A stretch of DNA of 59,249 bases from an uncultured Pelagibacteraceae bacterium (GTDB lineage Bacteria; Pseudomonadota; Alphaproteobacteria; Pelagibacterales; Pelagibacteraceae): positions 1 through 59,249 of the forward strand of contig CACNJC010000006.1 of NCBI GenBank assembly GCA_902620585.1. Reading direction: 5' to 3'. Positions within the stretch are counted from its first letter, which is position 1. Every line of letters starts with the position of its first letter. Below, one piece after another: positions 52,697 through 53,842 of this stretch. The notes beneath the pieces were generated by a model. It made no database searches, was not told where the DNA came from, and saw only the letters and a list, made by a program, of their open reading frames with translations. A program made the translations under genes and the position numbers.

Positions 52697-53281
52697 ATGT
52701 CTGAAGCTCCTTTTATGCCAAAAGCTACTGCTGTTTGGTTAGTAGAAAATACAACATTAACATTTAAACAAATCGCTGAATTTTGCAATTTACATGAGCT
52801 TGAGATTAAAGGGATAGCTGATGGAGATGTCGCAAAAAGCATTAAAGCTTACAACCCAATCTTAGCAGGACAACTTTCAAGAGATGAAATAGAAACTTGC
52901 TCTAAAGACCCGCAGAAGAAATTAAGTTTATTAAAAAGAATTGATAAAGTTGAAATCAAGGAAAGAAAGAGGCCTAAATACACGCCATTATCTAAACGAC
53001 AAGATAGGCCTGACGCCATTCTATGGTTATGTAAGAACGCTTCTGAATTAACTGACGGTCAAATTTCTAAATTGGTTGGAAGTACAAAAGGAACTGTCTC
53101 ACTGATAAGAAAAAGAAGTTATTGGAATTTTTCAAATCTCAAACCAAGAGATCCAGTTATATTAGCTTTATGTACACAGGAAACATTTGAAAAAAGTCTA
53201 GCGAAAGCCAAAAGAAGGGTTGAAAGAGAGAAAAAAGCTAAATTGAGAGAAGAAAAAAAAGCTCAAAAAGCTTCTATGTAG
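52697..53281 (+). CDS. trcR: Cell-cycle transcriptional regulator TrcR (DUF1013)
   Basis: A 194-residue alphaproteobacterial protein. The opening FMPKATAVWLVENTTLTFKQIAEFC looks like a winged-helix/HTH segment (about 8-35). A second HTH-like block AILWLCKNASELTDGQISKLVGSTKGTVSLIRKRSYWN follows (about 110-150) and a basic coiled C-terminus. In Caulobacter-type bacteria the family acts with cell-cycle control (as I recall). Just upstream of rpsU. Confidence 0.88.
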   Translation: MSEAPFMPKATAVWLVENTTLTFKQIAEFCNLHELEIKGIADGDVAKSIKAYNPILAGQLSRDEIETCSKDPQKKLSLLKRIDKVEIKERKRPKYTPLSKRQDRPDAILWLCKNASELTDGQISKLVGSTKGTVSLIRKRSYWNFSNLKPRDPVILALCTQETFEKSLAKAKRRVEREKKAKLREEKKAQKASM

Positions 53282-53321
53282 ACAATTAATGACGCAAATG
53301 ATAACAAACAAAGAAATTAAC

Positions 53322-53332
53322 AGGAGGTTTTT
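53322..53332 (+). promoter_or_regulatory. Perfect Shine-Dalgarno that decides the rpsU start
   Basis: AGGAGG (53322-53327) followed by five T and then ATC at 53333. It is the strongest ribosome-binding site I noticed in the window, at ideal spacing from a non-standard start codon. The next upstream in-frame codon series has TAA at 53318-53320. Confidence 0.85.
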
Positions 53333-53527
53333 ATCAAAATAGACGTTAAAGATAATAATGTTGAGCAAGCAATAAGAGTTTTAAAAAGAAAACTTCAAAA
53401 AGAAGGTTTTTTCAAAGTTATAAAAATGAAAAGTGTATATGAAAAGCCATCTGAAAAGAAAAAAAGAGTTCAAACAGAAAATATTAAAAGAATAAAAAAA
53501 CTCCAAAAGTTAAAAAATAGGTATTAA
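53333..53527 (+). CDS. rpsU: 30S ribosomal protein S21 (bS21) with ATC start codon
   Basis: A 64-residue bS21. From the ATC, read as Met, the protein runs (M)KIDVKDNNVEQAIRVLKRK, aligns without gap with the alphaproteobacterial M-Q-V-x-V-R-D-N-N-V start, and continues with the family core VYEKPSEKKKR. The frame has a stop at 53318-53320, and no ATG, GTG or TTG occurs before the internal ATG at residue 32, so a canonical start is impossible. An optimal AGGAGG sits five bases before ATC; an ATA two codons later is a poorer option. S21 sits by the anti-Shine-Dalgarno of 16S rRNA. It precedes the cold-shock gene by 29 bases. Confidence 0.9.
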   Translation: MKIDVKDNNVEQAIRVLKRKLQKEGFFKVIKMKSVYEKPSEKKKRVQTENIKRIKKLQKLKNRY

Positions 53528-53556
53528 TAAATAAAAATAAAATGAGAGGATCGAAA

Positions 53557-53760
53557 ATGCCATCCGGTAAAGTAAAGTGGTTTAATTCAAAAAAAGGTTA
53601 TGGATTTATAACTGACGAAGAGACAAATAAAGATATTTTTTTACATGTTTCGGCTTTAGAGCAGTCTAAATTAAGAGTTTTAAAAGAAGAGCAGAAAATA
53701 AAGTACGATATAAAAGAAGAAAAAAATAAACTTCAAGCAATAAATATTAAGAAAGTTTAA
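53557..53760 (+). CDS. Cold-shock domain protein
   Basis: A 67-residue single CSD protein. RNA-binding motifs are KWFNSKKGYGFIT (RNP1-like KGYGFI) and DIFLHVSAL (RNP2). The protein is charged and short at the C-terminus. An ATG at 53542 would add five codons, but AGAGGA sits six bases before the ATG at 53557 (MPSGKVKWFN), which also matches the family start. Possibly co-transcribed with rpsU. Confidence 0.93.
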   Translation: MPSGKVKWFNSKKGYGFITDEETNKDIFLHVSALEQSKLRVLKEEQKIKYDIKEEKNKLQAINIKKV

Positions 53761-53765
53761 TTTAA

Positions 53766-53842
<77 letters not shown>

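Follow-up and report, generated by a model that had tools for sequence, protein, structure and literature searches.

A non-canonical start codon behind a strong Shine-Dalgarno sequence in the rpsU genes of Pelagibacterales

Background

Non-canonical start codons have been called extremely rare in bacteria (PMC5472188). The gene for initiation factor IF3, infC, has ATT as its start codon in E. coli, ATC in Streptomyces (both PMC5472188), and AUA in Staphylococcus aureus (PMC13009471). IF3 is described as favouring stronger pairs at the third base (PMC10158994) and as repressing the non-canonical starts of both infC and sigR (PMC5472188). sigR of Streptomyces encodes a sigma factor and has a GTC start behind an extensive Shine-Dalgarno (SD) sequence; it was misannotated to a canonical codon lying inside that SD, and its repression by IF3 has been proven by experiment (PMC5472188). 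Two genes of S. aureus, cvfC1 (AUU) and ccpN (AUA), combine a conserved start with a strong, extended SD. These starts are reported to yield about 10% of the output of AUG, and ccpN gives more in rich medium (PMC13009471).

Ribosomal protein S21 (bS21), encoded by rpsU, is among the last and loosely bound proteins of the 30S subunit, and in E. coli it is reported to help SD pairing (PMC10931766). The rpsU gene of Flavobacterium has an exceptional SD within an SD-poor genome, and its autoregulation by bS21 is attributed to this extended SD together with sequestration of the anti-SD (PMC9976891).

Here we compare with these systems an rpsU gene from an uncultured member of the Pelagibacteraceae. 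Pelagibacterales (SAR11) are very abundant marine bacteria. The window, that is, the whole stretch of DNA analysed, covers 59,249 nucleotides of contig CACNJC010000006.1 (assembly GCA_902620585.1). The original prediction, made from the window alone, placed the start of rpsU at an ATC codon and proposed that a very strong SD plus a poor start codon may form a control switch for S21 or IF3. Among the matches listed in a literature search (subscription papers and preprints lay outside its scope), none dealt by title or opening abstract with a non-canonical rpsU start or with a unit of rpsU and initiator tRNA.

Results and discussion

The rpsU gene of the window

In the window, rpsU lies on the plus strand at 53333..53527, encodes 64 amino acids, and ends with TAA at 53525-53527. 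A profile search of the own genome gives a match to PF01165 (Ribosomal_S21) of 4.4e-15, which is above the curated cut-off, and rpsU is found as a single copy in this assembly (85% complete). The start codon is assigned to ATC (53333..53335), which is preceded at a distance of 5 nt by the SD sequence AGGAGG (53322..53327). An in-frame TAA is located at 53318..53320. Between this stop and residue 32, where the first in-frame ATG is found (53426), the window contains no ATG, GTG, or TTG in the rpsU frame. All of these elements are as the original prediction described them, and the comparisons below give good support to ATC, preceded by a strong SD, as the start of rpsU. A mechanical list of open reading frames (ATG, GTG, or TTG starts; at least 40 amino acids) has no plus-strand entry at rpsU, so a gene caller restricted to these three codons would miss the gene here. 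To that extent the expectation that a standard caller overlooks it is borne out, and callers of this kind would elsewhere lose rpsU or misplace its start.

Conservation in Pelagibacterales

In the order, 200 rpsU loci were read. After removal of the frame-shifted L200 and of copies identical over 250 bases, 169 distinct loci are left. Of these, 132 belong to the window's family and represent g1, g2, g3, g4, g6, and g7, all but g5 of the seven genera seen there; the other 37 come from a second family (g8-g11). Eighty named contigs were assigned to g1 by similarity instead of by a label. In the following, ATH stands for ATT, ATC, or ATA.

In the window's family, codon 1 of rpsU is ATT in 127 loci, and just five have ATA (3) or ATC (2). 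ATG at this position in relatives would speak against an ATC start, and ATG, GTG, or TTG is found there in 0 of the 132 loci. The loci are related by descent, so that 132 loci are not 132 independent events; they include loci from single-contig genomes (L150, L152, L154, and L160). Chance or a sequencing error at ATC is ruled out, since all 132 distinct loci have ATH. The upstream regions are conserved as well: GGAGG precedes ATH in 127 of 132 loci, and the other five have GGGGG or GGAG. The distance between SD and ATH is 5 nt in 107 loci, 6 in 10, 4 in 7, and 9 in 3.

The second family has GTT, GTC, or GTA at the aligned position, preceded by ATA in 36 loci and by ATC in one. Upstream, at a distance of 8 nt, stands GGAGG (36 of 37 loci), and because of this spacing ATA or ATC is taken as the start; the GTT, GTC, or GTA that follows could instead be the start. 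That every intact rpsU read in the order (169 distinct loci) has a non-canonical start is well supported by these alignments.

An S21 match is present in 134 of 169 genomes of the window's genus, many of which are incomplete, and in 267 of 297 genomes of the order. Among order genomes at least 90% complete, the profile search finds a match in 141 of 150 and none in nine. Matches in g5 are found in G261 and G315 and are missing in G200 and G271. The latter two and G127 (g1) are 94-99% complete with zero S21 matches, for which loss, divergence, or an assembly gap are possible reasons. In L200 (genome G112) and in genome G047, both of the window's genus, rpsU is disrupted by a frame change and stops, which may be assembly error or decay.

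Upstream region and alternative starts

Upstream of rpsU, 123 of the 132 loci in the window's family share a conserved promoter-like pair, T(A/T)GACA and then TGnTA, with a spacer of 17 in 122 loci and 18 in one. None of 131 control windows taken further upstream contains the pair. In the nine loci without the exact pair, the first element varies (TGGACA in seven, TAGACT in two). In the window, the proposed -35 element TAGACA is at 53279..53284 and the extended -10 element TG-A-TAACAA at 53299..53307, both on the plus strand. From this pair, the transcript is predicted to start at about 53314 and to have a 5' leader of about 19 nt (53314..53332). All but one of the 123 loci have a predicted leader of 15-21 nt; in the remaining locus it is 25 nt. 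Note that the pair came from comparison only; a generic promoter and terminator scan gave nothing useful and did not list it.

A leader of this predicted length would leave little space for a structured leader or for an upstream start. A structured leader of the ribosomal protein type was considered and rejected: no Rfam match is found at rpsU, and the fold of 53300-53420 is no better than that of shuffled sequences (z -0.32).

If the real start were elsewhere, at an upstream canonical codon, through a frameshift, or hidden by a sequencing error, ATH would be an ordinary isoleucine codon. An in-frame ATG, GTG, or TTG does stand before the upstream stop in 24 of 132 family loci. In g3, 18 of 21 loci have an in-frame TTG four codons upstream, which overlaps the SD by one base: its final G also opens the SD. 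This TTG could in principle start translation, which we judge unlikely because it would consume the SD and sit nearly at the 5' end of the predicted transcript. In the other 108 family loci no canonical codon stands in frame before the upstream stop; this stop is at most 7 codons upstream in 98 of the 132 loci and further away in 34. The SD-ATH distance differs between loci by 1, 2, 3, 4, and 5 nt, and since such differences include ones not divisible by three, no single reading frame is kept in the sequence upstream of ATH. Lysine invariably occupies codon 2 (AAA in 122 loci, AAG in 10), which indicates that translation starts at or before it. Codon 1 is also unlike the rest of the gene in its choice of isoleucine codon. 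The other isoleucine codons of the same genes are ATA 302, ATT 197, and ATC 28 times, with ATA at codon 3 in 123 of 132 loci; the preference for ATT at codon 1 far exceeds this usage, and codon 1 is not just any isoleucine codon. The spacing changes and the short predicted leader rule out an upstream or frameshifted start for most loci, and we regard a start other than ATH as highly improbable.

rpsU starts in other Alphaproteobacteria and in control genes

Outside the order, 140 rpsU loci were read from 139 of the 233 genomes of the class with a match (three of the 233 belong to the window's family). A canonical start was called when it stood at the aligned codon or at most two codons before it. 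GTG is found in 66 loci, ATG in 28, TTG in 24, and a non-canonical start in 22. The last number is not an unbiased rate, because six of the loci were picked as relatives of non-canonical ones; among the first 120 loci there are 17. Thus ATG is a minority start of rpsU in the class, of which Pelagibacterales are the extreme. In the 22 loci without a canonical start, the codon at position -1 is ATH in 19, CTG in two, and ACG in one, while ATH directly precedes a canonical start in only three of 118 loci. Relatives keep the non-canonical start in f14 (ATC in 3/3 read), f98 (ATC in 2/2), and f87 (ATA and ATC), and f29 is mixed (ATC in two, TTG in one). Within one family the codon changes from ATA to ATC (L360 and L509). 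A non-canonical start is found in all intact copies read of a ribosomal protein gene in one order, and it recurs across Alphaproteobacteria.

In L219, L357, L360, L406, L509, and L524, an in-frame GTG overlaps the SD. Such loci, and those with a TTG in the same position, could mislead gene callers and be misannotated as sigR was. Three loci outside the order (L394, L343, and L397) have apparent ACG or CTG starts.

In other classes of the phylum, rpsU has ATG at the conserved MP or MT start in 26 of 26 loci. This count refers to ATG at the conserved N-terminus; a tally of the last candidate codon would give 21 ATG and 6 GTG. The draw consisted of 30 loci, of which three were unread and 27 were parsed, the remaining one being a locus of the window's class with GTG. 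For another ribosomal protein gene, rpsO, ATG is found at or near the N-terminus in 28 of 28 genomes. Among 145 control genes, the starts are ATG 135, TTG 6, and GTG 4, where the calling admits canonical codons only and is blind to ATH.

Strength of the Shine-Dalgarno sequence

The pairing of the rpsU SD is -11.5 kcal/mol (RNAduplex, 13-nt 16S tail), the third strongest of 146 genes from the window and from the ribosomal protein regions of three relatives. These regions were taken from relatives because S19 has no match in the own assembly. The 16S tail also comes from three relatives: the 3' end, ...CACCTCCTTTCTAA, was read in 3 of 13 genomes, the own genome not being among them. Absence of the 16S pattern in the other genomes is uninformative, since a long part of the sequence is masked with N in the locus inspected (L496). 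GGAGG within 16 bases upstream is found in 4 of the 145 control genes. The strongest SD among the 146 genes belongs to the gene at 2072-2842 on the minus strand, which has an ATG start and which, from its translation, we take to be proteorhodopsin-like.

A strong SD where strong SDs are rare recalls the rpsU genes of Bacteroidota, to which the original prediction had pointed, and among them that of Flavobacterium. The likeness is partial: the gene is the same and its SD is exceptional, but here the SD ranks third and not first. The pairing energy falls short as well: the mechanism in Bacteroidia is described as resting on anti-SD sequestration and on pairing below -13 kcal/mol (PMC9976891), a value obtained with a different program from ours. 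The Flavobacterium SD is also the stronger one, and the mechanism lies in the SD and the sequestered anti-SD, whereas what is unusual in Pelagibacterales is the start codon. A feedback by S21 could nevertheless be imagined, in which 30S subunits without S21 are less strict on the start codon or prefer strong SDs, and translate rpsU until S21 is replenished. In F. johnsoniae, subunits without S21, or with S21 deprived of its C-terminus, are reported to bind rpsU mRNA more stably, independently of IF3 (PMC9976891), and the SAR11 rpsU SD is among the strongest of the 146 genes. S21 of E. coli, on the other hand, is reported to promote SD pairing and not to block it (PMC10931766), so it would oppose a negative loop acting through the SD. 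We consider such feedback rather unlikely.

infC and discrimination by IF3

IF3 is encoded in the own genome (PF05198 match, 9.4e-31). Judged by eye, infC has an SD followed by ATH at its start in 19 of 29 alphaproteobacterial genomes, one of the 19 being ambiguous. ATH is found in 15 of 18 genomes outside the order, which were chosen for their odd rpsU starts (17 without a canonical start plus the doubtful G478), and in 3 of 3 genomes of the second family; several of these infC genes have a canonical codon further in. As infC shows the same rare codons, discrimination by IF3 is a natural suspect for rpsU. In the window's family, infC starts with GTG or ATG in seven of eight genomes, and the eighth is the ambiguous one. 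Since infC mostly lacks ATH there, the parent IF3 loop is not intact in this family, and IF3's own loop seems to have been altered. In the own genome, infC starts at a GTG right behind a stop codon. Five members of the window's family (L231, L415, L426, L429, and L431) have an infC that begins with GTG directly after a stop and lacks a clear SD, unlike the ATH start of other alphaproteobacteria.

On balance we favour a reading in which rpsU has an infC-like start codon that IF3 discriminates against and the strong SD rescues, which would couple S21 output to initiation capacity. The codon, the SD, their spacing, the promoter-like pair, and the lack of AUG are shown by the comparison of loci. 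The poor start (AUU, less often AUC or AUA) would be usable thanks to the strong SD, which lies 4-9 nt ahead of it and close to the 5' end of the short predicted leader. Initiator tRNA would pair with AUU with the third base mismatched, and IF3 on the 30S subunit would destabilise this complex. When IF3-type discrimination per 30S subunit is low, S21 output would go up, and when it is high, output would go down. A loop of this kind would match S21 to the supply of 30S subunits and IF3 in the style of infC. As S21 joins late and is loosely bound, the loop would keep it in step with both. The proposed switch of strong SD and poor start is plausible, and S21 would join IF3 as the second component of initiation to be made at a rate that may depend on start-codon fidelity.

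rpsU resembles infC in the third-base mismatch of its start codon and in encoding a component of translation initiation. It differs in its product (S21 instead of IF3) and in the mostly GTG or ATG starts of infC in the window's family. cvfC1 and ccpN share with rpsU a conserved start and a strong SD; they encode unrelated proteins, and the parts of that report available to us mention no tRNA in the unit (PMC13009471).

Linkage to the initiator tRNA gene

The ATH start may also merely lower S21 output without responding to anything, and the gene order gives one form of this idea. In the window, an initiator tRNA-fMet gene with anticodon CAT is found downstream of rpsU on the plus strand (53766..53842). 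It has the C1-A72 mismatch, the defining feature of initiator tRNA. It starts 5 nt after a small plus-strand gene (53557..53760, with a further ATG at 53542), which from its translation we presume to be cold-shock-like. Across the window's family, 126 of 132 rpsU loci have an initiator tRNA gene downstream: 98/100 in g1, 20/21 in g3, 2/2 in g2, 5/5 in g6, and 1/1 in g7. The two exceptions in g1 are truncated loci. All 126 tRNAs have the CAT anticodon, and all seven distinct sequences have C1 and A72. The printed examples of g1 and g6 have a cold-shock-like gene between rpsU and the tRNA; in g3, the tRNA gene is only 3-6 nt past the rpsU stop in 20 of 21 loci. No tRNA-fMet gene is found downstream of rpsU in g4 (0/3) or in the second family (0/37).

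Given the gap of 3-6 nt, rpsU and tRNA-fMet in g3 share a transcript, unless there is a promoter inside rpsU. For the majority of loci in the window's family, the rpsU transcript probably yields initiator tRNA as well. E. coli has an initiator tRNA gene cotranscribed with genes of the translation machinery in the metY-rimP-nusA-infB operon. There the tRNA comes first, while here it comes after rpsU or the cold-shock-like gene. Together with the start codon and its SD, the order of rpsU and tRNA-fMet points to control on the start of protein synthesis, and it ties S21 to the initiator tRNA gene.

In such a unit, the promoter could be strong for the sake of the initiator tRNA, and the poor start could act as a fixed throttle that prevents overproduction of S21 and keeps ribosomes off the tRNA behind the stop, with no sensing. 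The tRNA gene after rpsU in most family loci fits this, as does the g3 gap, which is too small for a promoter in between. A strong SD would be odd if low output were the goal. Moreover, ATH is present without the tRNA in 3/3 loci of g4 and 37/37 of the second family. The linkage therefore does not explain the start codon and is disfavoured as its cause, and the codon seems to be older. We hold the throttle to be unlikely, if conceivable.

Discrimination by IF3, which we favour, could be extended to the whole unit. In this tentative scheme, to which we give little weight, Pelagibacteraceae would have an initiation-control transcript, namely a short-leader RNA that yields S21 from AUU and carries the initiator tRNA at its end. 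IF3, initiator tRNA, and S21 would all act on AUU. In g3, where rpsU stops just 3-6 nt short of the tRNA, the terminating ribosome would compete with tRNA folding and RNase P cleavage. The supplies of S21 and initiator tRNA would be mutually regulated, and phage S21 genes with ATG or TTG would bypass the loop.

S21 genes of viruses

Viral S21 genes have ATG or TTG in 54 of 54 distinct loci (33 duplicates excluded): ATG near the domain in 37, TTG near it in 11, and a canonical codon further upstream in six. S21 starts with ATG in the pelagiphages HTVC008M, Aegir, and Kolga, and with TTG in Mosig. The rpsU start in the hosts raises a concrete question: what do S21 genes carried by phages, with their ordinary starts, gain? 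In two viral loci (L315 and L316), ATA also stands directly before the TTG.
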